A stretch of 64,000 nt of DNA, from contig NZ_BJHV01000001.1 of the NCBI RefSeq assembly GCF_005405925.1, positions 6,138,001-6,202,000 on the forward strand, written 5' to 3'. Position 1 is the stretch's first letter. Every line of letters starts with the position of its first letter. The DNA is from Streptomyces antimycoticus (GTDB lineage: Bacteria; Actinomycetota; Actinomycetes; Streptomycetales; Streptomycetaceae). The position numbers were made by a program, and so were the translations under genes. Of the stretch, positions 9,067 to 58,607 are shown piece after piece. The notes under the pieces are model-generated. The model did no database searches, was not told the DNA's origin, and saw nothing but the letters and a program-made list of their open reading frames with translations.

Positions 9067-9121
9067 CTGACGCCAAGTCACATTACCCAGTAGTCAGGTT
9101 ACTGAACTGACGGCCTGTCAG
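9067..9121 (-). promoter_or_regulatory. Paired CTGAC-N5-GTCAG operator sites upstream of the acyl-CoA synthetase operon
   Basis: CTGACGGCCTGTCAG (9107-9121) is a perfect-arm copy of the dyad. CTGACGCCAAGTCAC (9067-9081) has one arm mismatch, and a lone GTCAG half-site lies at 9093. The centres of the two full sites are 40 bp apart. They lie 67-121 bases upstream of ATG 9000 in the only gap before that operon. Confidence 0.75.
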
Positions 9122-9257
9122 GAATGCTCGGGGCGCGGGGAACACGCAGGGTGACGGGCGGGGCGGCGGAAATCGCTGCCGGCCGCGCACCCCCGGTGCG
9201 GTGCATGGTGTCGCGTTCGTGCCGCTGTCTGTGTTGGTGGTCTCGCCTGCTCCGCGG

Positions 9258-10412
9258 TCATGCCGTTGTGCGGGCCACCGTCTTGGCGATCTTCCGGGCG
9301 TCGATGGCCAGCTCGCGCAGCATCCCGCTGATCGGGTTCGTATAGCCCGTGAAGTGCAGTCCCGGGGCGGACTTCAGGGTCCGCCGACCGTGGGGGAGGG
9401 GGCGGCCACGGTCGTCGAGCACGCCCAGATGGCCGACCAGTTCCTCGAGGCCGCGCCGGTAGCCGGTCGCGGCGATCACCACCTCGGGGCTGATCCGCGA
9501 GCCGTCGGCGAGGACCACCTTGTCCAGGTCGAAGGAGTCGACCGCCGAGACCACCTCCACCCGCCCCGTCCGTACCGCGTCGACCAGCCCCACGTCCTGG
9601 ACCGGGATCGCGCCCTCGCGTACGCGGGTGTAGAGCCCGGTGTCGGGCCAGGGCAGACCGTGCTCGGTCAGGTCCGGCATGCTCAGCCGGCACATCGCCC
9701 GCGCCGCCCGGTCCACCGCGCGCCGCGGCAGCCTGCGCACCAGGATGCCCGTCGCCTGTGCGGGCCAGCCGGCCGTCGAGCGGCGCAGGATGTGCGGCAC
9801 GGTGCGGACCGCCAGCCGCACCCGGGCCGCGCCGCCCTCGATCAGGTCGACCGCGATCTCCGCGCCCGTGTTGCCGACGCCGACCACGAGCACGTCGCGG
9901 CCCTCGAAGGGGCGGGCGTTGCGGTAGTGGGCGGCGTGCAGCAGCTCACCGGTGTAGGCGGCGCGGCCCGGCCAGTCCGGCACCCGCGGGGTGTGGTTGA
10001 AGCCCGTCGCGACGACGGCCACGGGCGAGGACAGCGCACGGCCGCCCGTGGCACGGAGCACCCACTCCGTGTTGTCGGGCGACCGGTCGATGCGGGAGAC
10101 CTCGACCCCCGTGACGATCTCCAGCCGGTGGTGCTCGGTGTAGCGCTCCAGATAGCGCACCACGTCGTCGCGCCCGACCCAGCGCCCGTAGGACCGGGGG
10201 ATCGGCAGGCCGGGGAGCGCGGACAGCCGGCGCGTGGTGTGCAGATGCAGCCGGTCGTAGTGGTTGCGCCATGACGCGGCGACCGCCTCGGACTTCTCCA
10301 GGACGACGGCGCGGATCCCGCGGTGGCTGAGCGCGGCAGCGGCGGCGAGTCCGCCCGGTCCGCCGCCGATCACATAAACGGGTGAGGACTTCTCGGGGGA
10401 GCTGTCAGCCAT
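9258..10412 (-). CDS. FAD-dependent flavin-containing monooxygenase
   Basis: Two-dinucleotide-binding flavoprotein of 384 aa. The FAD motif is VIGGGPGGLAAAAAL at residues ~14-28, and the NAD(P)H motif is VVGVGNTGAEIAVDL near residue 170. ATGYRRG lies between the C-terminal blocks, and FTGYTNPISGML is near the end. The family hydroxylates or Baeyer-Villiger-oxidises lipophilic substrates, and includes YUC/FMO-type enzymes. No CTGAC dyad lies directly upstream. Instead TTTGAC/GTCAAA repeats sit at 10434-10468, so it may be regulated separately. The DoxX-like gene diverges from it. Confidence 0.87.
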   Translation of the reverse strand: MADSSPEKSSPVYVIGGGPGGLAAAAALSHRGIRAVVLEKSEAVAASWRNHYDRLHLHTTRRLSALPGLPIPRSYGRWVGRDDVVRYLERYTEHHRLEIVTGVEVSRIDRSPDNTEWVLRATGGRALSSPVAVVATGFNHTPRVPDWPGRAAYTGELLHAAHYRNARPFEGRDVLVVGVGNTGAEIAVDLIEGGAARVRLAVRTVPHILRRSTAGWPAQATGILVRRLPRRAVDRAARAMCRLSMPDLTEHGLPWPDTGLYTRVREGAIPVQDVGLVDAVRTGRVEVVSAVDSFDLDKVVLADGSRISPEVVIAATGYRRGLEELVGHLGVLDDRGRPLPHGRRTLKSAPGLHFTGYTNPISGMLRELAIDARKIAKTVARTTA

Positions 10413-10433
10413 GCGGGTGAGCGTAGCCGGGTA

Positions 10434-10468
10434 TTTGACGGGTTTCGGTCAAAGCGATCCGGTCAAAG
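10434..10468 (-). promoter_or_regulatory. TTTGAC-N8-GTCAAA inverted repeat with an extra GGTCAAAG copy
   Basis: TTTGAC (10434-10439) and GTCAAA (10448-10453) form a dyad. GGTCAAAG occurs twice, at 10447 and 10461, spaced 14 bp. The cluster is 22 bases upstream of the flavin monooxygenase start, a position suited to an operator or -35 region. No regulator is identified. Confidence 0.35.
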
Positions 10469-10603
10469 TGATTCCGAATGGGTTGCGGACGGGTCACGGC
10501 CGGTATCTGTCGGTCTGCCGTTCCGCCGGTCGCTGCTTCGGCGTCCCGCCGACTCCCGCTCTGCTGGTGCGACCCCTTGCGCGGGCCGCACCCGACCGTG
10601 AAA

Positions 10604-10618
10604 CTGACGTACCGTCAG
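10604..10618 (+). promoter_or_regulatory. CTGAC-N5-GTCAG operator upstream of DoxX/DUF35 genes
   Basis: CTGACGTACCGTCAG has both arms perfect and ends 29 bases before ATG 10648. Its centre contains TACCGT, a plausible -10 hexamer, so repressor and RNA polymerase would compete. Confidence 0.78.
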
Positions 10619-10647
10619 ATTCGCTGGGATGGGAGAGGTGGGGGACG

Positions 10648-11100
10648 ATGCGGACGATCGGGCTCAGCGGGGCCGAATGGCTCGCCGTACTGCGCATCGG
10701 ACTCGGCCTGTGGTGGCTCGAGAGCTGGCGGCACAAGAACAAGAAGGACTGGTTCGAGCGCGGCACCGGTATCGGCTGGGCGGTGGGCGTGGCCGACAAG
10801 CACCGCTGGGCGTTCGTCCGCAGCGGCTTCGGCGCGGTGGTCACGCCCCGTCCCAAGGTCATGGCGTACGTCGTCGTCTACGCCGAACTCGCCCTCGGCC
10901 TCGGTCTGACGCTCGGCTTTCTGACCCCCATCGCCCTGGTCGGCGCGATCGTGCTCAATCTGCTCTATTTCCTGCTCATGATCCACGACTGGGCGGAGCA
11001 GGGGCAGAACTCGATGATGGTGCTGATCTCCGTGGTCGGGTTCTTCGGCATGAGCTGGCAGACCTGGTCGCTCGACGAGTCATGGGGACTGTTCCTGTGA
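10648..11100 (+). CDS. DoxX-like integral membrane protein
   Basis: A 150-aa protein with about four hydrophobic segments (AVLRIGLGLWWLES, then VVVYAELALGLGLTLGFL, IALVGAIVLNLLYFLLMI and MVLISVVGFFGM), matching the small DoxX/DoxD-type membrane family. Molecular function in this family is poorly defined; some members work with quinone or thiol redox systems. ATG 10648 has GAGAGGTGGGGG just upstream; the longer in-frame ORF to 10411 is untypical sequence running through the operator. It overlaps the DUF35 gene by four bases (GTGA), so the two are translationally coupled. Confidence 0.8.
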   Translation: MRTIGLSGAEWLAVLRIGLGLWWLESWRHKNKKDWFERGTGIGWAVGVADKHRWAFVRSGFGAVVTPRPKVMAYVVVYAELALGLGLTLGFLTPIALVGAIVLNLLYFLLMIHDWAEQGQNSMMVLISVVGFFGMSWQTWSLDESWGLFL

Positions 11101-11540
11101 GCCCGGCGCCGCCCGCGGACGCCCCGCGCTTCGACCTGCCCGAGATCGACGCTTTCACCCGCCCCTACTGGGACGCCGCGGCCGAGGGCCGGTTGCTGAT
11201 CCGGCGGTGCGCCGACTGCGGCCGGGCTCATCACTACCCGCGCGAATTCTGCCCGTACTGCTGGAGCGAGGACGTCAGCTGGGAGCAGGCGAGCGGCGCC
11301 GCGACGCTCTACACCTGGTCTGTGGTGCACCGCAATGACCTGCCGCCATTCGGCGCCCGCGTCCCGTACACCGCCGCCGTGGCCGACCTCGACGAGGGGC
11401 CGCGGATGATGACCGAGCTCATCGAGGCCCCGGAGAGCGGCCCGCGCGTCGGGATGCGGCTCCGGGTGGCGTTCCGGTCAGCCGATGCCGTCGAGGGGGC
11501 CGCCCCGGCCGTTCCCGTCTTTCGGCCGCTGCTCGCCTAG
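11097..11540 (+). CDS. DUF35 (rubredoxin-like zinc ribbon plus OB-fold) acyl-CoA-associated protein
   Basis: About 147 aa. The zinc ribbon is C-x2-C-x10-C-x2-C (CADCGRAHHYPREFCPYC, residues ~35-52), followed by an OB-fold (ATLYTWSVVHRNDLPPF, PYTAAVADLDEGPRMM). DUF35 proteins typically pair with Ltp-type thiolases or aldolases or with MaoC-type hydratases in steroid side-chain catabolism. Start GTG 11097 overlaps the DoxX stop, with GGGGA about 9 bases upstream. The nearest Ltp (12522-13700) is on the opposite strand with its own operator copy and may be the partner. Confidence 0.85.
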   Translation: MSPAPPADAPRFDLPEIDAFTRPYWDAAAEGRLLIRRCADCGRAHHYPREFCPYCWSEDVSWEQASGAATLYTWSVVHRNDLPPFGARVPYTAAVADLDEGPRMMTELIEAPESGPRVGMRLRVAFRSADAVEGAAPAVPVFRPLLA

Positions 11541-11560
11541 CCCGCCGCTGCGCGTATGGC

Positions 11561-12521: not shown

Positions 12522-13700
12522 TCAGCCGCGGCCCAGGACGACCGTGCCCGCTGAGCAGAACCAGCCCCCCGTGCCCGACGCCACGGCCAGCTCCGGCAGC
12601 CGTCCGCCCGCCTTGTGGACCTGTCGTTCCCCGGCCTCGCCGCGCAGCTGCCGTACCGCCTCGACCAGCAGGAACAGCCCGCGCATCCCCGGGTGGCAGG
12701 CGGAGAGGCCGCCGCCGTCGGTGTTCGTCGGCAGCTCGCCGTCCCGCGTCAGCCGCCCCTTCGCCGCGAACGCCCCGCCCTCGCCCTTGGCGCAGAAACC
12801 CAGGTCCTCGAGGGTCACCAGGGTCATATAGGTGAAGGCGTCATAGAGCTCGGCCACATCGATATCCGACGGCCGGACGCCCGCCCGGGCGAAGGCCGCC
12901 CGCCCCGAGGCGGCGGCCGGGGAGACCGTGAAGTCCTCCCATTCGGACATGGTGGTGTGCGAGACGGCCGTGCCCGAACCCAGCACCCACACGGGCGGTT
13001 TCGCCGTGTCCGGTACGTACTCCTCGGCCGCGAGCAGCACCGCGCAGCCGCCGTCCGAGCGGATGCAGCAGTGCAGTTTGGTGAAGGGGTCGGCGATCAT
13101 CGGGCCGCTCAAGACGTCATCGACCGTGATCGGTTCGCGAAACATCGCGTCCGGATTGTGCCCGGCATTGATACGCGCCTGAACGGCGATGTCCGCCAGC
13201 TGCTCGAGGGTGGTGCCGTACTCATGCATATGGCGGCGCGCGGCCATCGCGTACTTGGCGACCAACGTGTGCCCGTACGGGACCTCGAACTGCAGTGGTC
13301 CGCGCGCCCCGAAGGAGAGGTTCGCGGTGCGGCGGCCCGCGCGGATGTCGGCGCGGGCGGTGGAGCCGTAGACGAGCAGGACGGCGCGGGCGTGCCCGGC
13401 GGCGATCGCGTCCGCCGCGTGCGCCGCCATGACCTCCCAGGTGGAGCCGCCGACGGCCGTCGAGTCGGTCCAGGTCGGCCGCAGTCCCAGATACTCGGCC
13501 ACCTCGACCGGCGCGAGGGTGCCGAGCCCCGCCGAGGCGAAGCCGTCGACGACCGACCGGTCCAGACCGGAGTCGGCGAGGGCCCGGCGGGCGGCTTGGG
13601 CGTGGAGGGCGTAGGGGGTGGCCGTGTCGACGCGGCCGCAGTCGGAGAGGGAGACGCCGACGACGGCGACCTTACGGGCGCGCTGCGCTGCGGGCGACAT
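12522..13700 (-). CDS. Ltp/thiolase-like acyl-CoA lyase, nucleophilic Cys replaced
   Basis: Thiolase-fold protein of 392 aa of the lipid-transfer-protein (Ltp) type. Recognisable blocks are VVGVSLSDCGR, the region matching the thiolase nucleophile (VGGSTWEVMAAHA, Thr/Ser where thiolases have Cys), HMHEYGTTLEQLADIA, CIRSDGGCAVLLA, DIDVAELYDAFTYM and TDGGGLSACHPGMRG. Ltp2-type enzymes with DUF35 partners perform retro-aldol cleavage in steroid side chains, and loss of the Cys fits a lyase rather than a thiolase. The operator dyad lies 4 bases before the ATG, implying a leaderless transcript with -10 TACCGT inside the operator. Confidence 0.83.
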   Translation of the reverse strand: MSPAAQRARKVAVVGVSLSDCGRVDTATPYALHAQAARRALADSGLDRSVVDGFASAGLGTLAPVEVAEYLGLRPTWTDSTAVGGSTWEVMAAHAADAIAAGHARAVLLVYGSTARADIRAGRRTANLSFGARGPLQFEVPYGHTLVAKYAMAARRHMHEYGTTLEQLADIAVQARINAGHNPDAMFREPITVDDVLSGPMIADPFTKLHCCIRSDGGCAVLLAAEEYVPDTAKPPVWVLGSGTAVSHTTMSEWEDFTVSPAAASGRAAFARAGVRPSDIDVAELYDAFTYMTLVTLEDLGFCAKGEGGAFAAKGRLTRDGELPTNTDGGGLSACHPGMRGLFLLVEAVRQLRGEAGERQVHKAGGRLPELAVASGTGGWFCSAGTVVLGRG

Positions 13701-13704
13701 GAAT

Positions 13705-13719
13705 CTGACGGTACATCAG
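13705..13719 (-). promoter_or_regulatory. CTGAC-N5-(A)TCAG operator at the Ltp start
   Basis: CTGACGGTACATCAG has one arm mismatch and lies 4 bases upstream of ATG 13700. On the minus strand its centre reads TACCGT, 7 bases before the ATG, the spacing of a leaderless -10. Confidence 0.72.
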
Positions 13720-14162: not shown

Positions 14163-14177
14163 ATGACGGTCCGTCAG
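14163..14177 (+). promoter_or_regulatory. (A)TGAC-N5-GTCAG operator upstream of the acyl-CoA dehydrogenase
   Basis: ATGACGGTCCGTCAG has one arm mismatch at the first base and ends 19 bases before ATG 14197. GGAGG (14183-14187) lies between operator and start. Confidence 0.74.
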
Positions 14178-14196: not shown

Positions 14197-15588
14197 ATGG
14201 ACGCCGCGTTCACCGAGGAACAGGACGAGATCCGCCGTACGCTGCGCACACTCCTGCGGGAGCGGTGCGGGCCGGACGAGGTCAAGGCAGCGGTCCAGAC
14301 CGCGCCCGGCTACGACGAGGCCCTGTGGCGACAGCTCGCCCGGACGCTCGGGCTGCCGGGCCTGGCCCTTCCGTCGGCCTACGGGGGCGTCGGCTGCGGA
14401 GTCGCCGAGCTGGCGCTGGCCTGTGAGGAGACGGGGCACGTGCTGCTGCCCTCGCCGCTCCTGGCCACCACTGTGTTCGCCGCGCCCCTGGTCGCCGCGG
14501 TGGGGACGGAGGCGCAGCGCGCCGAGCTGCTGCCGCGTATCGCGGAGGGCGCCCTTACGGCGGCGCTCGCGGTGCCGGGACGCGCGCTGCCGGAAGCGCT
14601 CGGGCTCGTTGGAGCGCGGGACGGCGCGTGGGCTGGTGGGGGGCGCGCGGGGGGTGTCCAGGCGCGCCCGGACAGCGGTGGCGGTGCGCGGTGGCGGCTG
14701 TACGGGCAGGTGGAGCAGGTGCTGGGCGGGCACAGCGCCGAACTGCTGCTCGTCGCCGCCCGCGCCGGGGGCTATACGCGCGGGCGGACACTGCTGTTCC
14801 TCGTCCCGGCGGGGGCGGACGGGCTGGTCCGCACCCGGCTCACCGCACTCGACGCGACGCGCCCGCAGGCCCGCATCGAGCTGCGGAACGTACCCGCCGA
14901 GCTGCTGGGGGTGGATGACGGCGGGAGCGGGAGCGGGGACGGGGTGGCGGAGGCGCTGGCGGCGGTGGGTACGGCGGCCGCGGCCGTGCTCGCCGCCGAG
15001 GCCGTGGGGGCGGCGGACGCGGCCCTCGCGCGGACGGTCGATTATGTACGGGCGCGTGAGCAGTTCGGCCGCCCGATCGGCTCGTTCCAGGCGGTCAAGC
15101 ATCGGCTGGCGGATGTGTACGTCGCGGTCCAGGCGGCCCGTTCGGCGGCCTACTACGCGGCTTGGGCCGCGTCCCAGGGCGGCGCGGAAGGCACGGACGC
15201 GGCCCCGGGCGGTGCGCAAGGCACGGACGCCGCGGTGGCGGGCGGGCTCGCGCTCGCGCAGGCGCTGGAGGCGCAGCGCATGGCCGCGGCCGAGGCGGTG
15301 CAGCTACATGGTGGCATCGGCTTCACCTGGGAGCATGAGGCGCATCTCTACTTCAAGCGGGCCGCCTCAGACGAGCTGCTCTTCGGCCCCGTCCACCGGC
15401 TGCGGGCCCGGGCCGCGGAACGGGAGGGACTCTTCGGCGCGACCGACCGCGCTCCTTACGGCGGCCATGACGGGCGCGGGGGAATGGTGGATACGGCGGG
15501 CGCGGGGGGAACGATGGGCCTGATAAGCGCGCTAGGCGTGATGGGCGTGATGGGCGTGACGGGCGTGACGGGCCACGGAAGGCGGTGA
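14197..15588 (+). CDS. Acyl-CoA dehydrogenase (FadE-type) with low-complexity C-terminal tail
   Basis: FAD enzyme of 463 aa that should introduce a double bond into an acyl-CoA. N-terminal helices (MDAAFTEEQDEIRRTLR), GLPGLALPSAYGGVG, the C-terminal REQFGRPIGSFQAVKHRLAD and VQLHGGIGFTWEHEAHLYFKRA are standard. By eye it looks like a FadE subunit used as a heteromer in steroid-type catabolism. The last ~55 residues are odd: a Gly-rich extension ending in a GVMGVMGVTGVTG run encoded by 9-bp repeats, and an internal duplicated GTDAA segment. The deazaflavin-dependent oxidoreductase starts 8 bases after the stop. Confidence 0.87.
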   Translation: MDAAFTEEQDEIRRTLRTLLRERCGPDEVKAAVQTAPGYDEALWRQLARTLGLPGLALPSAYGGVGCGVAELALACEETGHVLLPSPLLATTVFAAPLVAAVGTEAQRAELLPRIAEGALTAALAVPGRALPEALGLVGARDGAWAGGGRAGGVQARPDSGGGARWRLYGQVEQVLGGHSAELLLVAARAGGYTRGRTLLFLVPAGADGLVRTRLTALDATRPQARIELRNVPAELLGVDDGGSGSGDGVAEALAAVGTAAAAVLAAEAVGAADAALARTVDYVRAREQFGRPIGSFQAVKHRLADVYVAVQAARSAAYYAAWAASQGGAEGTDAAPGGAQGTDAAVAGGLALAQALEAQRMAAAEAVQLHGGIGFTWEHEAHLYFKRAASDELLFGPVHRLRARAAEREGLFGATDRAPYGGHDGRGGMVDTAGAGGTMGLISALGVMGVMGVTGVTGHGRR

Positions 15589-15595
15589 CGGTCTG

Positions 15596-16078
15596 ATGGC
15601 CGGTTACGGCGTGAAGCTGGTCCGAAAGGTGTCCTCGACCCGCGCCTTCGCCAAGGTCGCTCCCCATGTCATCCCCGCCTTCGACCGCACCGTCCACCGG
15701 CTGACCCGCGGCAAGGTGCTGCCGAGCGCGCGGATGCTGCCCGGCGTGATCCTTACCGCGCGCGGCGCGAGGTCGGGGCTTCCCCGCCGTACGCCGCTGG
15801 CCTGTATGCCGGAGGACGGCGGCACCTGGCTCCTGATCGGCAGCAACTTCGGCCGCCCGGGCCACCCGGCCTGGACCGGGAACCTCCTGAAGCACCCGGA
15901 AGCGGAGATCAGCTGGCGGGGCCGGGACATCGCCGTCCGGGCACGGCTGCTGGAGGGCGCCGAGCGCGAGGCGGCCTGGGCGGCGGCCCTCGCCTTCTGG
16001 CCGCCGTACGCGAGCTATCAGTCGCGGGTCGAGCGCGAGATCCGCCTCTTCCGCCTCCACCGCGCCGAGGAGCCCTGA
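15596..16078 (+). CDS. Nitroreductase-family deazaflavin (F420)-dependent oxidoreductase, Ddn-like
   Basis: A 160-aa split-barrel protein of the Ddn/Rv3547 family. The signature VILTARGARSGLPRRTPL and the block TWLLIGSNFGRPGHPAWTGNLLKHPEAEI are typical of F420H2-dependent quinone/nitro reductases. The preceding acyl-CoA dehydrogenase is 8 bases away and shares its operator. Together with the luciferase-like enzymes at 36-39 kb it ties this regulon to F420, whose precursor synthase FbiC is at 46370. The 3' end lies inside the first unit of a tandem repeat. Confidence 0.87.
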   Translation: MAGYGVKLVRKVSSTRAFAKVAPHVIPAFDRTVHRLTRGKVLPSARMLPGVILTARGARSGLPRRTPLACMPEDGGTWLLIGSNFGRPGHPAWTGNLLKHPEAEISWRGRDIAVRARLLEGAEREAAWAAALAFWPPYASYQSRVEREIRLFRLHRAEEP

Positions 16079-16470: not shown

Positions 16471-17118
16471 TTACTTCGGCGGTTTGCGCCCGGTGACGCC
16501 GAGGTGGACGAGCCAGGTCAGGCTCGGCCTGAGGTCGGCCTGCTTGACGCCCCAGCTCTGGAAGCCCTTCTGGTGCGCCGCGACCGCGGCCAGCATCGCG
16601 ACCAGCGAGCCCGCGATGGCCCCGGGGTTGAGGTCCTCGTCGATCCGGCCCTTGGCCTGCTGCTCCTTGACGGCGTCCGTAAGGGAGTTGGTGACGGAAT
16701 TGAGGATCTTCATGCGGATCTTGTAGAACCGCTTGTCGCCCTCGGCGGCGCCCAGGTCGACCACCCTCAGGATGGCGTCGTGTTTGCGCCAGAAGGAGAG
16801 AAACCCCTCGACCAGGTCCTCCGACGCCGCCGCGCCGGACTTGCCCGCCCATGAGCGGTCGGCGACCAGATCGGTTAGGTTCGCACCCTCCTTCGCCATC
16901 TCCTCGGCGAGCTCGAGGACGGCGCCCTCCACATCGGGGAAGTACTGGTAGAACGTCGCAGGCGAGGTCCCTGCCTTACGTGCGACATCGATGACCTTGA
17001 CGTCTCGATACGGGGATGTGTTGAGCATCTCGCCGAGGCAGTCGAGCAGCTTCTGCCGCGTCGCCTGCCCGCGACGACCGGCCACCCGCCCGTCGACTGT
17101 GCGTACTTGTCCTGTCAT
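16471..17118 (-). CDS. TetR-family regulator, candidate controller of the CTGAC regulon
   Basis: A 215-aa repressor-like protein. The N-terminal HTH reads ATRQKLLDCLGEMLNTSPY, then VKVIDVARKAGTSPATFYQYFPD. The ligand domain follows (FLSFWRKHDAILRVVDLGAAEGD, NPGAIAGSLVAMLAAVAAHQKGF). It sits between the first catabolic block and the afs genes; from memory a TetR gene occupies this place in S. coelicolor too. A CTGTC-N5-GTCAG dyad (17112-17126) overlaps its start codon, one base off the operator found at the catabolic units. Autoregulation and control of that regulon are therefore inferred, not shown. A perfect terminator follows. Confidence 0.88.
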   Translation of the reverse strand: MTGQVRTVDGRVAGRRGQATRQKLLDCLGEMLNTSPYRDVKVIDVARKAGTSPATFYQYFPDVEGAVLELAEEMAKEGANLTDLVADRSWAGKSGAAASEDLVEGFLSFWRKHDAILRVVDLGAAEGDKRFYKIRMKILNSVTNSLTDAVKEQQAKGRIDEDLNPGAIAGSLVAMLAAVAAHQKGFQSWGVKQADLRPSLTWLVHLGVTGRKPPK

Positions 17119-17126
17119 GCCGTCAG
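17112..17126 (-). promoter_or_regulatory. Possible autoregulatory CTG(T)C-N5-GTCAG operator over the TetR start
   Basis: CTGTCATGCCGTCAG differs from the regulon arms at one base and includes the CAT that is the TetR start codon on the minus strand. One-mismatch copies are expected about twice by chance in 64 kb, so location is the main support. Confidence 0.5.
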
Positions 17127-18420: not shown

Positions 18421-18650
18421 ACCCCGGCCGGAGAACTGGGCGATACAGGCCTGAGGGCACTTAGATGATCCTCGGTCGAACCGGACGGTCCCCGGCTCCG
18501 TATCGCCCGATGACACGACGATTCGCCCCCGGGTTCGCAACCGCCGCCTTCGCCAGAGAGAATGCAGGATGCGTGCCGCCGGTTGGTTTGTCGGTGAGAC
18601 GCTGCACGGGGCTGTACTTTTTCAAGCCCCCACGGGGAGGTGGCAGGCAA

Positions 18651-21290
18651 GTGGTGGAGCAGCTGACGCAGCACGATCCGAGGCGGATCGGCCCTTTCGA
18701 GGTGCTCGGCCGTCTCGGCGCGGGCGGCATGGGGCTGGTCTATCTGGCCCGCTCGGCATCGGGCCGACGGGTCGCGATCAAGACGGTCCGGACCGAGCTC
18801 GCTGAGGACCAGCTGTTCCGTGTCCGGTTCACCCGTGAGGTGGAGGCGGCCCGTGCGGTCAGCGGCTTCTATACGGCCGCCGTCGTGGACGCCGATCCGC
18901 GCGCCGCGGTGCCATGGCTGGCCACGGCCTATGTGCCGGCGCCCTCCCTCGAGGAAATCGTCAACGAGTGCGGACCGATGCCGGCCCAGGCGGTGCGGTG
19001 GCTGGCGGCCGGGGTGGCCGAGGCGCTGCAGTCCATCCATGGCGCGGGCCTGGTCCACCGGGATCTGAAGCCGTCCAATGTGCTGGTCGTCGAGGACGGC
19101 CCGCGGGTGATCGACTTCGGTATCGCCTCCGGTGTTTCGAACACCCGGCTGACGATGACCAACGTCGCGGTCGGCACCCCCGCCTATATGTCCCCCGAGC
19201 AGGCGCGCGACTCACGCAGTGTGACGGGCGCGAGCGACATCTTCTCGCTCGGCTCGACCCTGACCTTCGCGGCCACCGGGCATGCGCCCTTCCACGGCGC
19301 CAACCCGGTGGAGACCGTGTTCATGCTGCTGCGCGAGGGCCCCGACCTGAACGGGCTGCCCGACGAGCTGCGGCCGCTCATCGAGTCGTGCATGCAGATG
19401 GAGCCCGAGCGGCGGCCGTCCCCGGCCGATCTGCAGTCCCAGCTCGCCCCGCATCTGTTCGCGTCCAACGCCGACGACAGCGGTACGGCCTCGGCCTGGC
19501 TGCCGCCCGGCGCCGTCGCGCTCATCGAGCGCAAGCGCAGCGGCCGCAACCAGGTGCGCGGCTCCACCCGGCCCGCGTCCGGAGGCGGCCGTCCCGGAGG
19601 CGCCGGGCACGCCGCGAACGACGGCAGCCGGCCGTCCGCGCCGCTTCCGCCGGAGCGTCCGCCCACGCCGCCACCCTCGTACGCCCCCGCCGCGGGAGGC
19701 CCCGCCGACGGCCATGGCGGCCGGCACGGCGCGGCCGCGGCCGGGCCCGCCGGTGCGGGCGGCTGGGAGCCCGTGGGCGTGGGCGATCCGCGCGGGGGCC
19801 TGCGCGCGCCGGAGGCCGCGAGCCCGCCGAGCGCGCTGGGCTCCATCGGGCCCGGGCGGCACGCCGCCCCGTCCGCCGCCGCCGCGCCCGCTCCGGCGCC
19901 CGCCGGGGCCGACGGATCGGTGCGGCTGCCCGGTTCGCAGGTGCCGATCGGCCCGGGGCTCCGGGCCGACCAGGGGCGGGATCCGCAGCCGCAGCACGGC
20001 ACCGGGCCCGCGACCGGCTGGGTGCGCCCGCCGGCCGGGGTGACTACCGGAGGGCTGAACGGAGGCGACGGCACGGCCGCCGTCCCGCCGCCGACCCACT
20101 CCCCGCCGGCCGAGCCGCCCGAGCCGCATGCCGGAGGAGCCGGGCACGGCCGCTGGCGCCCGTGGCGGTTCCGGATGTCCAACGACGTCTGGGGCACCCC
20201 GGCGGTGGCCGGCGATCTGCTGTATGTGACCTCGTTCGAGGTGCACGCGCTGGATGTGGCCACCGGCCGTCGCCAGTTCAAGACCCGCGACGTGGCGTGG
20301 GCCATGGCCGTGGAGAACGGCCGGATCCACGCCTCCGACGGCCCCACGCTGTACGCGCTGGACGCGGAGGACGGCGCCGAGCGCTGGCGGCTGTCGACCG
20401 ACGGCTGGGTCTACTCCCTCAAGGTCGACCGCGGCACGGTCGTCACCGGGACGCGCGGCGGTGGCGTCCAGGCGTGGGAGGCGGCCAACGGCGAGCTGCT
20501 GTGGGAGATGCAGGGCCTCCAGACCGACTTCGAGACGCCCGAGTCCGGCCCGGCCGTCCACGACGGCACGGTGTATGTGTGGGCGGACGCGCGGCTGCGC
20601 GCCCTGGAGGCGCGCACCGGCGCGGAGCGCTGGTCGTATCCGGTGGGCGACGCGGCCTCGTGCGGCGGTGTGCCGCTGCGTCTGCTGGCGGCCCCCGACG
20701 GGGTGGTCTACGTCTCGGCGGGGACGCGGGTGCTCGCGCTCGACGCCGCCCGCGGGGATGTGCGGTGGCGTTTCGAGGCGCCCGCCGTCTTCCTGTGCGC
20801 CCCCGCGTACGCGCCGGGGCCCGCGGTGACCGGCGGCGGCATCTACATCGCCGACTATCTGGGCACGGTGTACGCGCTGGACGCGGCGAACGGCCGCGAT
20901 CGCTGGCGTATCGCCACCGAGGCCCGGCAGTCGATCGAGCCGGTGCTGGTGGCCGACGGCTCGGTCCATCTGGGCAGCGGCAGCGCGCTCTACACGCTCG
21001 ACGCGGTCACCGGCACGCCCAAGTGGCGGTTCGCGGCGGGCGGCGAGGTCATCGGCTCGCCGGTGGTCGCCGACGGCCGGGTCCACTTCGGCTCGGCCGA
21101 CCACTGCCTCTACACGGTGGACGCGGCGGGCGGACAGCTGCGCTGGAAGCTGGCGACCGGCGGCGAGATCACCGGGTCCCCGGTGGCCGCCGGAGGTGTG
21201 GTGTACGCCTGCAGCAAGGACCGCTGCGTCTACGCGCTGGACGCGGTCAAGGGCACGGGCCAGTCCCGGCCGTCGGGCGGCCGGGCCTGA
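18651..21290 (+). CDS. afsK: Serine/threonine kinase AfsK with PQQ-type beta-propeller
   Basis: Hanks-type kinase of about 879 aa. Kinase domain ~1-265: glycine loop [17 protein letters not shown] lysine K44 in VAIKT, catalytic HRDLKPSN (D138), DFG (D155) and [11 protein letters not shown] long Pro/Gly/Ala linker follows, then from ~505 a PQQ-like propeller of repeated ALDAxxGxxRW blades. No transmembrane helix is visible, as in AfsK rather than PknB. AfsK phosphorylates AfsR, which then switches on afsS and secondary metabolism. GTG 18651 is chosen, with GGGGAGG 10 bases upstream; the ORF runs open to 18465. Its partners lie 6-10 kb away on the other strand. Confidence 0.9.
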
Positions 21291-24036: not shown

Positions 24037-25254
24037 TCAACTCCTCAGCAGCAGGGCGGATGTGGGAACCCCTTCACCCGCCGTGACCAGGCAGGTCGTG
24101 GCGCCGGGGACCTGGGCGGTGCCGGTGCCGCGCAGCTGTCTGACCCCCTCGGTGATCAGGTTGAAGCCATGGACGTACGCCTCGCTGAGGCCGCCCCCGC
24201 CGGTGTTGAGCGGCAGCCGTCCGCCGATCTCCAGTGCGCCCCCCTCGGTGAAGGCGGCGCCCTCGCCGCGGGCGCAGAAGCCGTAGCCCTCCAGGGAGAG
24301 CGGGATCAGCGGGGTGAACGCGTCGTAGATCTGCGCGACATCCACATCCTGCGGCCCGAAGTCTGCGGTTTCCCACAGTCGGCGGGCGGCGGTCCAGGAG
24401 GGGCCGGTGAGCGGGTCGTCGTTCCAGTAGTTGACCATCCCGTGGTGCTGGGCGGGCAGCCCCTGGGCGGCGGAGTGGACGTACACCGGCCGTTGCCGGC
24501 AGTCGCGCGCCCGCTCGGCCGACACCACCACACAGGCCAGCGCGCCATCGGTCTCCAGGCAGTTGTCGAAGAGGCAGAGGGGCTCGCTGATCCACCGCGC
24601 GGTCATATACATCTCGCGGGTCAGCGGGCGGTCGTACATGATCGCGGCGGGGTTCTGATTGGCCCGGTTGCGGCAGGCCAGCGCCACATTGAAGAAGTGA
24701 TCGCGGGTCGCGCCGTACTCATGCATATAGCGCCGGGCCAGCAGTCCGATCTCATCGGCCGGACGCAGCAGTCCGTACGGCCGGGTCCACTGGGCCGGGG
24801 TGGGCAGCTGCGCCCGGGTGTTGGTCCAGGGGCGCGGCCCGCTGCCGCGTTTGCGCGACCGCCAGGCCACCCCGACGCTCGCCTGTCCGGTGGCGACCGC
24901 GGCGGCCAGATGTGCGACGGTCGCACAGGAACCGCCGCCCCCGTAGCCGACCTTGCTGAAGAAGGTCACCTCCCCGGCGCCGATGGCCTTGGCGACCTCG
25001 ACCTCGTCGGTCTCCTCCATGGTGTACGAGGCGAAGGCGTCCACCTCGGACGGGGCGATACCGGCGTCGTCGAGCGCGGCCAGGATCGCCCGGCAGGCCA
25101 GGGTCTTCTCGGATTCGGGGAGGCGTTTGGCGAAGGGGGTCTGTCCGATGCCCGCTATCGCCGTCGCGTCCTTCAAGGCCGCCCCCGCCGTCGGCCCCGT
25201 CGCCCCCGCCGTGCTCCTCGTCGCCCCCATGGCCGCCTCCGTGGTCGCGTTCAC
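24037..25254 (-). CDS. Ltp-type thiolase/acetyl-CoA acetyltransferase-like protein with Cys
   Basis: A 405-aa thiolase-fold protein. An Ala/Thr-rich leader of ~28 residues precedes IAGIGQTPFAKRLPES. The nucleophile region is VGYGGGGSCATVAHLA, retaining Cys, unlike the paralogue at 12522. Later blocks are ARRYMHEYGATRDHF, LETDGALACVVV, DVDVAQIYDAFTPL and TGGGGLSEAYVHGFN. It starts 32 bases from the operator dyad shared with the divergent FadD gene and is followed by its DUF35 partner. Chain-shortening of a branched or cyclic acyl-CoA is the likely job. Confidence 0.87.
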   Translation of the reverse strand: MNATTEAAMGATRSTAGATGPTAGAALKDATAIAGIGQTPFAKRLPESEKTLACRAILAALDDAGIAPSEVDAFASYTMEETDEVEVAKAIGAGEVTFFSKVGYGGGGSCATVAHLAAAVATGQASVGVAWRSRKRGSGPRPWTNTRAQLPTPAQWTRPYGLLRPADEIGLLARRYMHEYGATRDHFFNVALACRNRANQNPAAIMYDRPLTREMYMTARWISEPLCLFDNCLETDGALACVVVSAERARDCRQRPVYVHSAAQGLPAQHHGMVNYWNDDPLTGPSWTAARRLWETADFGPQDVDVAQIYDAFTPLIPLSLEGYGFCARGEGAAFTEGGALEIGGRLPLNTGGGGLSEAYVHGFNLITEGVRQLRGTGTAQVPGATTCLVTAGEGVPTSALLLRS

Positions 25255-25286: not shown

Positions 25287-25301
25287 CTGACGGGTAGTCA
25301 G
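25287..25301. promoter_or_regulatory. CTGAC-N5-GTCAG operator between divergent Ltp and FadD genes
   Basis: CTGACGGGTAGTCAG has perfect arms. It lies 32 bases from the Ltp start (25254) and 45 bases from the FadD start (25347), so one site can control both directions. Confidence 0.78.
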
Positions 25302-31074: not shown

Positions 31075-31134
31075 GGGGCCGGACCTCTCCACAAGGCCCG
31101 CCCGACTTCGAGACCTCCGTTTGCCGACGGATCG

Positions 31135-36322: not shown

Positions 36323-36381
36323 ATATCACTATGGCCGACGTCCGATACGACGATGGCGGTCCACCGACGAGGAGGCCCGGC

Positions 36382-37329: not shown

Positions 37330-37339
37330 GGAGAACGGA

Positions 37340-38192: not shown

Positions 38193-38207
38193 CTGACGAT
38201 GCGTCAG
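38193..38207 (+). promoter_or_regulatory. CTGAC-N5-GTCAG operator upstream of the LLM/deacylase/SDR operon
   Basis: CTGACGATGCGTCAG has perfect arms and ends 28 bases before ATG 38236. Confidence 0.78.
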
Positions 38208-39363: not shown

Positions 39364-39418
39364 CCGCGGACGCGCGAGCCGAGACCCAGCAGCCGCAGAC
39401 GCGAGAAGGGATCCACCC

Positions 39419-41161: not shown

Positions 41162-41165
41162 GCCG

Positions 41166-41909
41166 ATGGCACGCGCGGCCCTGATCACGGGCGCCTCACG
41201 CGGTATCGGCCTGGCGGTGGCGAAGGCGCTGCTGGCGGACGGTGCGGCGGTGTGCCTCACGGCGCGGGACCCTGAGGAACTGGCCGAGGCCGTATGCCAC
41301 CTCGGCCCGCGCGCCGTCGCCTGCCCCGGAGATGTGGCGGACCCGGCGCACCCGGAGGCGGCGGTGGCCCGCACCCTCGAGGAGTTCGGCCGCCTCGACA
41401 TCCTGGTCAACAACGCCGCCACCAACGCCCCGCTGGGCCCGCTGATGACGGTGGACCCGCTCGCCTGGCGCAGGGCCTTCACGGTCAATGTGGAGGCCCC
41501 GCTGCGGCTGACCCAGGCGGCCTGGCGGGCCTGGATGGGCGACCACGGCGGCGCGGTCGTCAACATCTGCACCGAGGGCACCCACGGCGTCGGCCCGGAC
41601 GTGGGCGCCTACGGCACCGCCAAGACCGCCCTCCTCCGCCTCACCCGCCAGCTCGCCGCCGAACTGGCCCCGTCGGTCCGCGTCAACGCCGTCTCCCCGG
41701 GCCTGGTCCGCACCGAGATGGCCCGCTTCGTCTGGGAGCCCGGCGAGCGGGAACTCGCCGCGGCGCTCCCGCTGGCCCGGATCGGCGAACCGGAGGACGT
41801 GGCGCGCGCGGTCCGCTGGCTGGTCTCGGACGAGGCGTCCTGGATCACCGGCGCGGACCTGGTGGTCGACGGCGGCCGCCGGGTCCGTGCGGCGCGGCCT
41901 ATCGGCTGA
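41166..41909 (+). CDS. Short-chain dehydrogenase/reductase
   Basis: Classical SDR of 247 aa: ITGASRGIG at residue ~8, LVNNAATNAPLG, and an active-site region VVNICTEGTHGVGPDVGAYGTAKTAL. The Ser expected in the catalytic triad appears as Thr/Glu around CTEGT, while Tyr-x3-Lys is present. This may alter or weaken the activity. C-terminal VDGGRRV is typical. It starts 4 bases after the deacylase stop, so is translationally coupled. Confidence 0.85.
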   Translation: MARAALITGASRGIGLAVAKALLADGAAVCLTARDPEELAEAVCHLGPRAVACPGDVADPAHPEAAVARTLEEFGRLDILVNNAATNAPLGPLMTVDPLAWRRAFTVNVEAPLRLTQAAWRAWMGDHGGAVVNICTEGTHGVGPDVGAYGTAKTALLRLTRQLAAELAPSVRVNAVSPGLVRTEMARFVWEPGERELAAALPLARIGEPEDVARAVRWLVSDEASWITGADLVVDGGRRVRAARPIG

Positions 41910-41945: not shown

Positions 41946-42596
41946 TCAGTCGTTCGCCGGTGGCGTCAGCCCGTGGCGGTGGAGGAAGGCATCGACGAGC
42001 CGGTCGGTGAACTCCTGGCCGACGGGTTCGTCGGTCATCAGCACCCGGTAGTAGACGGGGCCCGTGAGCTGGTCGGTCTCGGCCGTCAGGTCCAGGCCGG
42101 GCGGCAACTCCCCGCGCTCCATGGCCCGTTCCAGCGGAAGGCGGTCGCGGCGCCGCTGATCGTCGAGGTACCGGGACCGGAAGTCCCGGGCGAACGCCGG
42201 ATCGTGCTGCGCCTGCGCGACCAGGGCCTTGAAGACCGCGCCGGCGTCGGACGCGCTGAGGAACCCGGCCAGGTCGCCCAGATAGCTGCGCAGGTCCAGG
42301 GCGAGATCACCGCGGTCGCGCACGGGCAGGTCCTCGGCCACATCCTGGAGGAAGGCGTCCATGAGGACATCGGTCTTGGTGCTCCACCAGCGGTAGATCG
42401 TCTGCTTGGCGACCCCGGCCCGGGTGGCGATCCCCTCCATGGTGACGCCCGCGAAACCCTTCTCGGCCAGCAGATCGTCCGCCGCGTTCAGCACCGCCAG
42501 CCGGGCCTGTTCGCTGCGCCCGTGCCGGTTGCCGTGGTGGCGTGGTGCCGGTCGGTCGGTGCCGCTCGTCCCGGCAGTTTGTGTCGCGCGTGCCAT
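41946..42596 (-). CDS. TetR-family regulator divergent from a methyltransferase
   Basis: About 216 aa. The HTH is AVLNAADDLLAEKGFAGVTMEGIATRAGVAKQTIYRWWSTK, with the C-terminal TetR_C domain ending LVDAFLHRHGLTP. ATG 42596 (MARATQTAG) has GGGAGG 4 bases upstream; the ORF is open to 42626. A 30-bp imperfect palindrome lies in the gap to the divergent methyltransferase gene, so it likely represses itself and that gene. Its HTH and operator differ from those of the regulon described for 16471-17118. Confidence 0.88.
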   Translation of the reverse strand: MARATQTAGTSGTDRPAPRHHGNRHGRSEQARLAVLNAADDLLAEKGFAGVTMEGIATRAGVAKQTIYRWWSTKTDVLMDAFLQDVAEDLPVRDRGDLALDLRSYLGDLAGFLSASDAGAVFKALVAQAQHDPAFARDFRSRYLDDQRRRDRLPLERAMERGELPPGLDLTAETDQLTGPVYYRVLMTDEPVGQEFTDRLVDAFLHRHGLTPPAND

Positions 42597-42647
42597 CTCG
42601 CCTCCCCGAGATCTCAGGATAACCACCCTCCCCGGCTCTGTTTCTTC

Positions 42648-46369: not shown

Positions 46370-48982
46370 ATGACCACGAGCGCGCAGGGAAACGAACCGG
46401 CTGGCCCGACTGGCTCCGCCGCCCCCACAGCCAACGCGATGCGCCGTGCGCTCAAGCGCGCCCGCGACGGCGTGGCGCTGGACACCGCCGAGGCGGCGGT
46501 GCTGCTCCAGGCGAGCGGTGACGATCTGAAGGATCTGATGGCCTCCGCCGCCAAGGTCCGCGACGCGGGCCTGGAGGCGGCCGGCCGCCCCGGGGTCATC
46601 ACCTACTCGCGCAGCGTCTTCATCCCGCTCACCCGGCTGTGCCGGGACAAGTGTCACTACTGCACCTTCGCGACCGTGCCCGGCAAGCTGCGCCGCGCGG
46701 GCCACGGGATGTTCATGTCGCCCGACGAGGTCCTGGCCATCGCCCGCCGGGGCGCCGAAATGGGCTGCAAGGAAGCGCTGATCACCCTCGGCGACCGCCC
46801 CGAGGACCGCTGGCCCGAGGCGCGTGCATGGCTCGAGGCCGAGGGGTACGACGACACCATCGCGTATGTACGCGCCATGGCGATCCGCATCCTGGAGGAG
46901 ACCGGCCTCCTGCCCCACCTCAACCCCGGCGCGATGACCTGGACCGACTTCCAGCGGCTCAAGCCGGTCGCCCCCTCCATGGGCATGATGCTGGAGACCA
47001 CCGCCGAGCGGCTGTGGAGCGAGCCCGGCGGCCCCCACTACGGCTCGCCCGACAAGGAACCGGCGGTGCGGCTGCGCGTTCTGGAGGACGCCGGGCGCAG
47101 CTCCGTCCCGTTCACCAGCGGGCTGCTGATCGGGATCGGCGAGACACCGCAGGAGCGGGCGGAGTCGCTGTTCGCGCTGCGCCGCGTCTCCCGCTCGTAC
47201 CACGGCATCCAGGAAGTCATCATCCAGAACTTCCGCGCCAAACCGGACACCGCGATGCGGGGGATGCCGGACGCGGAGCTGGACGACCTGGTGGCGACCG
47301 TCGCCGTCGCGCGACACATCCTGGGCCCGTCCGCCTGCATCCAGGCCCCGCCCAACCTGGTCGACGCGGAGTACGAGCAGCTCATCGGCGCCGGTATCGA
47401 CGACTGGGGTGGCGTCTCCCCGCTCACCCCGGACCACGTCAACCCCGAGCGCCCCTGGCCCCAGGTGGACGAGCTGGCCGAGCGCTCCGCCGCCGCCAGC
47501 TTCAGCCTGCGCGAACGGCTCGCGGTCTACCCCGAGTACATCCAGCGCGGCGAGCCCTGGCTGGACCCCCGGCTGCTGCCGCATGTGACCGCCCTCGCCG
47601 ACCCCGCGACCGGCCTGGCCCGCGAGGACGCGACCCCCACCGGGCTGCCCTGGCAGGAGCCGGACGAGGCGTTCAGCGCCTCCGGCCGCACCGATCTGCA
47701 CCACACCATCGACACCGAGGGCCGCACCGGTGACCGCCGTAAGGACTTCGACGAGGTCTATGGCGACTGGGAGGCGCTGCGCGAGGCCGCGGCCCCCGGG
47801 ATGGTCCCCTCCCGCATCGACGGCGACGTCAAGGCCGCGCTCGCCCAGGCCGCCGACGATCCGACCAAGCTGACCGACCCCGAGGCGCTGGCCCTGTTCC
47901 ACGCCGACGGCCCGGCGCTCGACGCCCTGTGCCGCATCGCCGACGATCTGCGCCGGGCGGCGGTCGGCGACGACGTCACCTACATCGTCACCCGGAACAT
48001 CAACTTCACCAATGTCTGCTACACCGGCTGCCGCTTCTGCGCCTTCGCCCAGCGCCGTACGGACGCCGACGCCTACACCCTCTCCCTGGACCAGGTCGCC
48101 GACCGCGCCCAGCAGGCGTGGGACGTGGGCGCGGTGGAGGTCTGCATGCAGGGCGGCATCCATCCCGACCTGCCCGGCACCGCGTACTTCGACATCGCCC
48201 GCGCCGTCAAGGAGCGCGTGCCCGGGATGCATGTCCACGCCTTCTCCCCGATGGAGGTCGTCAACGGGGCGACCCGCACCGGGATGTCCATCCGCGAATG
48301 GCTGACGGCGGCGCGCGAGGCGGGCCTGGACACCATCCCCGGCACGGCGGCCGAGATCCTGGACGACGAGGTGCGCTGGGTCCTCACCAAGGGCAAGCTG
48401 CCGACGGCCACCTGGGTCGAGGTCGTCAAGACGGCGCATGAGCTGGGCGTCCGGTCCTCGTCCACGATGATGTACGGCCATGTGGACCAGCCCCGCCACT
48501 GGCTGGCCCATCTGCGGCTGCTCGCCGAGATCCAGCAGGAGACGGGCGGTTTCACCGAATTCGTCACTCTCCCCTTCATCCACACCAACGCCCCCGTCTA
48601 CCTCGCCGGTATCGCCCGCCCCGGCCCCACCAGCCGCGACAACCGCGCCGTCACGGCCATGGCGCGGATCCTGCTCCACCCCCATATCCCCAACATCCAG
48701 ACGAGCTGGGTGAAGCTGGGCGCGGAGGGCGCCGCCGAGATGCTCCGCTCCGGCGCCAACGACCTGGGCGGCACCCTTATGGAGGAGACCATCTCCCGCA
48801 TGGCGGGCTCCTCCTACGGCTCCTACCGCTCCGTCCAGGACCTGGTGGCCATCGCCGAGCTGACCGGACGCCCCGCCCGGCCCCGCACCACCACCTACGG
48901 TCCCGTCCCCGAGGAGCGCCAGGCGGCGGCCCTCGCCTCGGACGGCCATCTGCCGGAGCTGCTCCCGGTGCTGGGGGACTGA
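46370..48982 (+). CDS. fbiC: FO synthase FbiC (fused CofG/CofH radical SAM enzyme)
   Basis: An 870-aa bifunctional enzyme making FO (7,8-didemethyl-8-hydroxy-5-deazariboflavin), the chromophore of coenzyme F420, from a tyrosine and a ribityl-uracil precursor. Two radical SAM halves are evident: the CofG-like half with CRDKCHYC (C91, C95, C98) and the CofH-like half with CYTGCRFC (C550, C554, C557). [17 protein letters not shown] and [17 protein letters not shown] are typical of each. The fusion is standard in actinobacteria. It supplies the cofactor that the Ddn-like and LLM enzymes in this window probably use. No CTGAC dyad is at its start, so it is not part of that regulon. Confidence 0.96.
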
Positions 48983-57341: not shown

Positions 57342-57499
57342 GTCCCCTCCAGGGGTCCGCCATATGAACGGGAGCGCACTTCGCCGCGACGTTCGTCATG
57401 GGCGGTTCCCCCGAGCGGGAGCGGGGTACTTCCGGGATTGAACCGCTCGTTCGGGTGACCGGTCAAGGGTTCTAAGGGTCACGAGTGTGAACACAGATC

Positions 57500-57526
57500 A
57501 GAAAGAAGAACGAATTTACTCTTTCT
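57500..57526. promoter_or_regulatory. AGAAAGA-N13-TCTTTCT dyad in the 313-base symporter-SDR gap
   Basis: Arms 57500-57506 and 57520-57526 are perfect 7-bp complements enclosing an AT-rich core (AACGAATTTAC). The gap 57342-57654 otherwise shows no gene. It may be an operator for the symporter or act in the SDR 3' region. Confidence 0.4.
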
Positions 57527-57654
57527 TGACCTGACGGGGCGTTGTCGTTCGCATGCTCGTGAACCCACGATGAGCGGGCACTTCGTCAGACGCACGCCCA
57601 CCGATCGATGGGTCGTACGGGAGCGGGATCCCGAAAGGCCGGACAGGAGTCGCG

Positions 57655-58437
57655 CTAACGCATCAGCTCACCGGCGTTCACCAGCAGCGACTGTCCGGTG
57701 ATCGCCCGGGCCCGGTCGGAGGCCAGGAACACCGCGGCCTCCGCCACATCCCCGTCCGTCGCCAGCTCGGGCAGGGCCATCGCGTCCGTGAGCCGGGCCA
57801 GCACCTCGGCCTCGCTCACCCCTTCGGTCTGTGCCGTGAAGGCCACATACGCGCGCACCGGCGGCCCCCACATCCAGCCGGGCTGCACGGTGTTGACCCG
57901 TATCCGGTGCGGACCCAGCTCGCGCGCGAGCGCGTACATGGTGGAGGTCAGCGCGCCCTTGGAGGCGGCGTACGCGGTCTGGCGCACCTTGGTGGGGGCG
58001 GCGGAGGACGACTGGGTGCCGATCAGCACGACCGAGCCGCCGTTCCGTTTGAGCGCGGGCAGGCAGGCGCGGGTCATCCGCAGCGTCCCGAAGAGATTGA
58101 TGTCCACCACCCGGGCCCAGGACGTGAAGTCGGCGTCCTCCAGTCCGCCGAAGTGGCTGTCCAGCGCGGCCACATGGACGACGGCGTCGATCCGGCCGAA
58201 GCGGTCCAGGGCGAGCGCGGCGAGGGCCTCGCACTGCTCCTCGTCCGCGATATCGGTCGGCCGCCAGGCGGTGCGCTCACCGCCCGGATCGACCTCCTCC
58301 GCCACCTTCGGCAGCCGCTCCTCGGTCCGCGCCCCCATCGCCACCCGCGCCCCGTCCCGGACGCACGCGGCCACCACCCGGGCCCCCAGCCCGGGCCCCA
58401 CCCCGGAGACGACGACGGTCTTGCCCTGCAGCGGCAT
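57655..58437 (-). CDS. Short-chain dehydrogenase/reductase
   Basis: Classical SDR of 260 aa: VVSGVGPGLGARVVAACV at residue ~8, VVHVAALDSHFGG in place of NNAG, the active-site block VLIGTQSSSAAPTKVRQTAYAASKGAL (Ser, Tyr-x3-Lys) and PGWMWGPPVRAY. ARTEERL after beta-2 suggests NADP(H). Diverges from the unknown gene at 58622; both starts have their own CTGAC dyads (58455 and 58593), so the pair belongs to the regulon of the 9-41 kb genes even though 20 kb away. Confidence 0.87.
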   Translation of the reverse strand: MPLQGKTVVVSGVGPGLGARVVAACVRDGARVAMGARTEERLPKVAEEVDPGGERTAWRPTDIADEEQCEALAALALDRFGRIDAVVHVAALDSHFGGLEDADFTSWARVVDINLFGTLRMTRACLPALKRNGGSVVLIGTQSSSAAPTKVRQTAYAASKGALTSTMYALARELGPHRIRVNTVQPGWMWGPPVRAYVAFTAQTEGVSEAEVLARLTDAMALPELATDGDVAEAAVFLASDRARAITGQSLLVNAGELMR

Positions 58438-58454
58438 GGCGGCACCTCCCGTGT

Positions 58455-58469
58455 CTGGCGTCGCGTCAG
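58455..58469 (-). promoter_or_regulatory. CTG(G)C-N5-GTCAG operator upstream of the SDR
   Basis: CTGGCGTCGCGTCAG has one arm mismatch and lies 17 bases before ATG 58437. The spacer GTCGC equals that of the partner site at 58593. Confidence 0.7.
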
Positions 58470-58592
58470 GTTAGGGGTGCGGCCCTCAGATGGCCAGAGT
58501 GCGGCAGCGGTCCGGCTCCGGCGGAAGGCCACTCCCGGCCGTGCGGCCGCCGTCCGATTCCGCGCACTTGATACCGGCAGCCCCCTCCCCAA

Positions 58593-58607
58593 CTGACGTC
58601 GCGTCAG
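58593..58607 (+). promoter_or_regulatory. CTGAC-N5-GTCAG operator upstream of the 58622 gene
   Basis: CTGACGTCGCGTCAG has perfect arms and ends 14 bases before ATG 58622. TAAACC then lies 7 bases before the ATG, and GGGGG almost touches it, so the mRNA is probably leaderless. Confidence 0.78.

Follow-up and report, generated by a model that had tools for sequence, protein, structure and literature searches.

Among the TetR-family regulators of actinobacteria, KstR (Rv3574) of mycobacteria is described as an autoregulated dimer that binds a short palindrome overlapping the −10 region and controls lipid catabolic targets, with a further 16 sites dispersed in one species and 31 in another (PMC1995591). 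A system of comparable design appears to be present in a 64-kb stretch of the 11.17-Mb genome of Streptomyces antimycoticus (hereafter the window). This stretch carries multiple copies of a 15-bp dyad, CTGAC-N5-GTCAG, which is very probably bound as an operator by the PF19352 TetR protein, whose gene lies at 16471-17118. From its sequence context, this protein is predicted to be the autoregulated repressor of a dispersed regulon of acyl-CoA- and F420-dependent catabolic genes. As the best functional analogue, KstR shares autoregulation, a palindromic site, dispersed sites and catabolic targets with the window TetR, and it differs in its operator (TnnAACnnGTTnnA versus CTGAC-N5-GTCAG) and in the enzymes that it controls. 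In a search of solved structures with the window TetR, the chain that we take to be KstR (3mnl) reaches no better than an E-value of 0.56. The best reading is that the window TetR works like KstR but is not KstR.

Other described regulators resemble the system in part. The KstR2 regulon covers FadD3 and the degradation of methylhexahydroindanedione propionate coenzyme A (HIP-CoA), and genes for a FadD3-like ligase, a thiolase-fold protein and an acyl-CoA dehydrogenase are likewise found among the window targets. However, the KstR2 operator differs from the dyad. EthR of Mycobacterium tuberculosis has the closest fold to the window TetR, at about 20% identity, with the sequence match confined to the helix-turn-helix (HTH) region. 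MftR and BkaR are described as TetR repressors of actinobacteria with links to acyl-CoA or keto-acid metabolism. Their operators, T-N2-GGCA-N5-TGCC-N2-A and GTTA(N)T(N4)A(N)TAAC respectively, are both unlike the dyad. SRTF1 of Nocardioides simplex is another steroid-responsive TetR protein, and the relevant section of its source does not include the motif sequence (PMC7807495). SAV3818, a TetR gene named in the literature as antibiotic-stimulating, may be the same gene as the window TetR or a different one. In Streptomyces coelicolor, the TetR gene SCO4421 lies close to afsK and is raised during development; its expression falls in a whiA mutant, the gene is active in spores, and deleting it gave no detected phenotype (PMC3878966). 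The window has a matching order, in which the TetR gene is followed by one gene and then by a kinase with pyrroloquinoline quinone (PQQ) repeats. Based on this synteny and on the single-copy status of the gene in 101 of 101 genomes of the genus, the window TetR is probably the orthologue of SCO4421. The passages of PMC3878966 give neither an operator nor a regulon. No publication with this operator or regulon was found when open-licence papers were searched by sequence words, gene names and topic; for the regulator itself, SCO4421 in PMC3878966 was the sole entry to emerge. As far as those papers go, this bears out an earlier reading of the window made from its letters alone (the sequence-only reading), which had called the regulon undescribed. 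That reading could match the motif to no named regulator. The open-licence papers gave no match either, but a candidate regulator is encoded among the sites themselves.

The window contains six perfect copies of the dyad against 0.054 expected from base composition (probability of at least six copies, about 3e-11), which agrees with the earlier estimate of about 0.06 per random 64 kb. All six lie between genes, though 80% of the window is coding according to our own codon-usage gene caller. Some starts from this caller are uncertain, and those of three genes (the TetR gene, the first gene for a luciferase-like monooxygenase (LLM) and the acyl-CoA ligase gene) were replaced by earlier ATGs read off the sequence. 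Among inverted repeats of the 5-N5-5 form present at least three times in the window, CTGAC is the arm with the largest excess. The sequence-only reading had listed these six copies and five more with one mismatch, each of which is located where that reading placed it, and had omitted two further one-mismatch copies at 17112 and 31124. The seven one-mismatch copies compare with about 2.6 per 64 kb across the genome (493 places minus the 40 perfect ones, in 11.17 Mb). Because this is only about 2.7 times the genome background, a lone one-mismatch copy needs backing from relatives. When up to two mismatches are allowed, the window shows no excess (35 seen versus 36.8 expected).

Across the whole genome there are 40 perfect copies versus about 9.4 expected from base composition, and a reversed-pattern control gives three. 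Of these copies, 26 are intergenic (binomial P 4.6e-8 against a background of 24% non-coding), as are 20 of the 34 outside the window (P 1.5e-5 against the same background). The sequence-only reading had said that an equal frequency inside genes would speak against a regulon, and the motif does not show this pattern. When both directions of the 13 window copies are considered, G is the next base inside the arm in 22 of the 26 half-sites, and A is the second base outside it (5′-side reading) in 19. The dyad has an extended form of approximately WATCTGACG-N3-CGTCAGATW, with CTGACG-N3-CGTCAG as its core and AT-rich flanks. A tightened form, CTGACGNNNCGTCAG, is found 20 times in the genome versus about 1.2 expected, with one copy of the reversed control and with 15 of the 20 copies intergenic.

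The candidate regulator is a protein of 215 amino acids encoded on the minus strand. It matches PF00440 and is the sole match in the genome to PF19352 (TetR_C_38), at 237.4 bits versus a cut-off of 23.9. Its N-terminal TetR HTH domain and all-helical C-terminal ligand domain place it in the TetR/AcrR family. Against the NCBIfam equivalogs SlmA, ScbR, FabR and SACE_7040 it reaches 22-28 bits and misses all of their cut-offs (120-250). The protein is 98 and 97% identical to TetR proteins of S. niphimycinicus and S. violaceusniger. A putative autoregulatory operator, CTGTCATGCCGTCAG, is located at 17112-17126 and holds the start codon of the TetR gene itself (17118-17116, minus strand). This ATG is in frame with the gene, and all of the 120 relatives listed have 215 amino acids, the length reached from this codon. 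A length check on the alignment gave 215 for 113 of them and 237 for seven, which correspond to its gapped rows. This own site, a variant of the dyad, is present in all of the 80 best named homologous loci, with an identical 15 bases in 78. In these same 80 loci, an almost invariant TAAGCT overlaps the site and ends six bases before the ATG, a spacing that would suit a leaderless TetR transcript. The own site is also found, at one mismatch, in 11 of 12 further genomes of the same genus.

A search of 396 actinobacterial genomes for both PF19352 and the motif links the dyad to this protein family. The 27 genomes with a strong PF19352 match, including the source genome, have a mean of 8.6 and a median of 9 copies of the motif, and 19 of them have at least five. 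The 356 genomes without PF19352 have a mean of 0.27, with at least five copies in two. Weak matches of about 20-30 bits, tallied apart, behave like absence (13 genomes, mean 0.46, none with five copies). The association holds outside the genus, where at least five copies are found in 10 of 15 genomes with a strong match versus 2 of 356 without PF19352 (P 1.6e-14). Within the genus, each of 101 genomes (the source genome included) has exactly one PF19352 match, and the motif has a mean of 13.3 copies versus 0.34 for the reversed control. The 76 genomes that have a close relative of the window amidohydrolase carry a median of 14.5 copies, and the 25 that lack it carry a median of 7. The TetR gene remains single-copy in all 101 genomes and is retained also where nearby catabolic genes are gone.

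The corresponding loci of eight Streptomyces relatives, compared as stretches of 40-60 kb, all have the own site of the TetR gene. The five relatives that bear the catabolic cluster (G161, G128, G193, G352 and G023) likewise have sites in front of the genes for DoxX, acyl-CoA dehydrogenase, thiolase/ligase, amidohydrolase and the second LLM protein. A site also lies between the short-chain dehydrogenase/reductase (SDR) gene and its divergent partner in the four of these relatives whose stretch reached that pair. Across six orthologous promoters, none of 72 arm columns varies and 12 of 18 central columns do, with the DoxX site being fully invariant. These sites were picked at no more than one mismatch, so that the five outer arm columns were partly selected and the inner G and C were not. 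In two relatives (G334 and G369) the cluster and its sites are absent from the stretch fetched, and the TetR gene and its own site are retained. Most of the cluster is absent from G171, in which a few other dyad copies are present.

This distribution also bears on the alternative that the dyad belongs to a different regulator encoded in the window. A second TetR (41946-42626), an AraC-type protein (35123-36169) and an AfsR-like protein of the Streptomyces antibiotic regulatory protein (SARP) type (28082-31006) are all encoded among the sites. However, neither the second TetR nor the AraC-type protein has a BLAST match in the stretches of the eight relatives, five of which retain the sites, and the AfsR-like gene is found in all eight, even in those without catabolic sites. 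These candidates were rejected on the basis of these eight relatives, and it is very unlikely that one of them is the dyad-binding protein.

More distant homologues carry further traces of the same system. Outside the genus, a perfect site accompanies 5 of the 15 strong homologues when loci of up to 3.4 kb are considered. Named relatives of the homologue from one distant genome (G374) include proteins of Acidimicrobiales, Iamia and Aquihabitans among the best 120 listed. An alignment of 24 proteins, eight similar to the window TetR and 16 related closely to the G374 protein and to one another, shows no variation in the recognition segment AGTSPATFYQYF or in much of the N-terminal arm. Some homologues from genomes with few sites (G050 and G016) have an altered recognition helix. 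Of 35 perfect sites in six distant genomes, 27 are followed, no more than 200 bp downstream, by a gene for a relative of a labelled protein. The labelled set of 37 proteins (31 from the window and six from beside other sites, assigned by BLAST only) is broader than the targets, and the count falls to 24 of 35 when aldehyde dehydrogenases and a flavin reductase are left out to keep only families that are site-fronted in the window. Target families are therefore common to these lineages along with the word itself. Labelled genes account for 28 of the 40 genes at sites versus 55 of the 182 other genes in the same loci (P 4e-6). The distant regions consist of the motif places among those listed plus the TetR loci, and represent part of all sites. 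Overall, the distant homologues mostly retain the recognition helix along with the motif and target families of related kinds, namely amidohydrolases, LLM oxidoreductases, acyl-CoA ligases and dehydrogenases.

The sites in the window are spread over many transcription units. A one-mismatch copy (9067-9081) and a perfect copy (9107-9121) share the promoter region of a minus-strand gene for an acyl-CoA synthetase of the ATP-grasp/Succ_CoA_lig type (6751-9000), with two perfect copies at the corresponding promoter of G161. The perfect copy at 10604-10618 is 29 bp before a plus-strand pair, a DoxX-like gene and a gene for a ChsH2-type Zn-ribbon protein with an oligonucleotide/oligosaccharide-binding (OB) fold (10648-11540), and is found in all five cluster-bearing relatives. 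A minus-strand gene for a thiolase-like protein (12522-13700) is preceded by the one-mismatch copy at 13705-13719. Likewise, G161 and G352 have a second site at this promoter, which G128, G193 and G023 lack. The copy at 14163-14177 has the ATGACG form and precedes plus-strand genes for an acyl-CoA dehydrogenase and an F420H2-dependent quinone reductase (14197-16078). A replaces C at its first base here and in all five cluster-bearing relatives, making this a conserved variant. The perfect copy at 25287-25301 overlaps a TAATCT box between two divergent genes, one for a thiolase-fold lipid-transfer protein (24037-25230, minus strand; NF005892 above its cut-off) and one for a FadD3-like acyl-CoA ligase (25347-26956, plus strand; 610 bits versus a cut-off of 657). 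Compared with its orthologue in G161, the ligase gene has an apparent frameshift near 25763-25775, which reflects either a decayed gene or a sequencing error.

The remaining sites precede genes for amidohydrolases, LLM oxidoreductases and SDR proteins as well as a gene without a family match. The perfect copy at 33718-33732 is 20 bp before a gene for an Amidohydro_2 enzyme (33753-34982, plus strand), and the one-mismatch copy at 36308-36322 is 8 bp before an in-frame ATG at 36331 that starts plus-strand genes for an F420-dependent LLM oxidoreductase (TIGR03619) and an SDR (36331-38122). A perfect copy (38193-38207) lies 28 bp before the second LLM gene, which is followed by genes for an Amidohydro_3 protein and another SDR (38236-41909, plus strand). 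The last two copies flank a divergent pair: the one-mismatch copy at 58455-58469 is 18 bp before an SDR gene (57655-58437, minus strand), and the perfect copy at 58593-58607 is 14 bp before a plus-strand gene (58622-59449) for a protein of 275 amino acids that has no Pfam or NCBIfam match. Its BLAST relatives lie close to sites in G374 and next to a site in G284, and it might therefore be an enzyme of the pathway that represents a new family. The sequence-only reading had placed every site before a catabolic gene, which is mostly the case, with DoxX-like, SDR and no-family-match genes being found among the targets as well. The one-mismatch copy at 31124-31138 overlaps the end of a tetratricopeptide repeat (TPR) gene and is probably a chance occurrence, as no such site is listed before the afsR-like gene in the eight relatives. 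Other genes of the window code for the kinase with PQQ repeats (18465-21290), the SARP and an F420 synthesis protein (46439-48982); the names AfsK-like, AfsR-like and FbiC-like used for these proteins are a reading of their domains.

Outside the window, 20 intergenic sites are present, and the genes flanking 15 of these were scanned (20 proteins, one of them at a genic site), with L030, L040, L046, L051 and L052 left aside. Seven of the 15 sites fit the theme of the regulon, fronting genes for an OB-fold protein (L022), a FAS1-dehydratase/OB fusion (L033), an Amidohydro_2 enzyme (L034), an LLM protein (L027), a nitronate monooxygenase (L023), a protein with a polyketide-cyclase fold (L021) and, by association only, PorA (L026).

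Several observations weigh against the proposed regulon of the PF19352 protein. The other eight of the 15 scanned sites front genes without an obvious common theme, and some of them are probably chance occurrences. The autoregulatory site itself has an imperfect arm, which may deviate because it also spells coding sequence, and in G246 the same arms enclose a centre that is one base longer. Eight of the 27 genomes with a strong PF19352 match have fewer than five copies, including five outside the genus that have 0-2 (G050, G016, G040, G102 and G313). Of these, G040 and one G102 copy retain the recognition helix yet have 1-2 sites, and G284, G226 and G036 have 7, 11 and 5 sites despite an altered helix. 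Within the genus, genomes that lack the marker amidohydrolase still have 2-31 copies. Lastly, nine genomes without a strong PF19352 match carry 3-7 copies. In five of these nine (all but G139, G377, G064 and G121), 15 of 24 sites were read. Besides three loci of G162, these comprise eight intergenic and four genic sites, mostly with GC-rich flanks, as judged from a weak gene model of the local sequence.

The three G162 loci (L253, L258 and L263) contain perfect copies with similar flanks. Because all three share one context, these copies are probably a dispersed repeat foreign to the regulon. The G162 copies and the chance-level counts at up to two mismatches would fit a motif that stems from a repeat without regulatory function or from base composition. 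For the dyad as a whole, this explanation is extremely improbable, since it is already contradicted by the window statistics, with six copies versus 0.054 expected and an intergenic bias, by the promoter comparison, and by the low reversed control in 101 genomes. In addition, the centres and flanks of the window copies are not alike.

The placement of the sites is that of repressor operators, as the sequence-only reading had proposed. This view is supported by their intergenic location, their position before gene starts, their fixed arms and drifting centres, and the phylogenetic coupling to one TetR family. Of the 11 copies initially reported, eight end 4-45 bases before a start codon, as had been stated for most sites. 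The exceptions at 9067, 9107 and 25287 are 57-107 bases from their minus-strand gene, and the last of these is 45 bases from the ATG (25347) of the divergent ligase gene. Some sites overlap TANNNT-like boxes, which is consistent with the promoter contact noted in that reading. Binding and repression, like the effector and the substrate, are inferred. In the proposed mechanism, a TetR dimer would occupy sites lying over or next to the promoter, immediately before the target starts, and would block RNA polymerase there; the protein would also repress its own gene via the site containing its start codon. The protein would come off the DNA when its C-terminal domain takes up a metabolite of the pathway, which would most likely be a CoA thioester or the corresponding free acid. 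This release would switch on the dispersed genes for acyl-CoA ligases and dehydrogenases, for thiolase/OB-fold proteins and amidohydrolases, and for F420-dependent oxidoreductases.

Alternatively, the PF19352 protein could bind the dyad chiefly to activate its targets, or could have a dual action on them, for example by tying catabolism to development beside afsK. The behaviour of the presumed orthologue SCO4421 in the whiA mutant, in spores and on deletion (PMC3878966) would fit this possibility, as would the retention of the TetR gene where nearby catabolic genes have been lost. However, the distances to start codons and the overlaps with −10-like boxes are those of a repressor, and autoregulation via the start codon fits repression. 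An activating or dual role is thus unlikely.

Within the repressor interpretation, a broader history can be proposed tentatively. The repressor common to Streptomyces and distant actinobacteria might control a regulon of ancient origin that serves a so far undescribed degradation pathway dependent on F420 and acyl-CoA. Its gene might have become fixed in Streptomyces beside afsK-, afsR- and fbiC-like genes, with a transcript that would probably be leaderless and whose start codon would belong to its own operator, and the protein might have taken on a second, universal role as a link between this catabolism and development or antibiotic control. Under this proposal, it is the retention of the TetR gene where the neighbouring pathway is lost that points to such a second role.

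These findings provide a likely operator and a target list for a TetR protein that is present once per genome in 101 genomes of the genus and that extends to other lineages. A single protein and a single DNA probe would now suffice to test its function, and several enzyme families of obscure role are grouped into one probable pathway.

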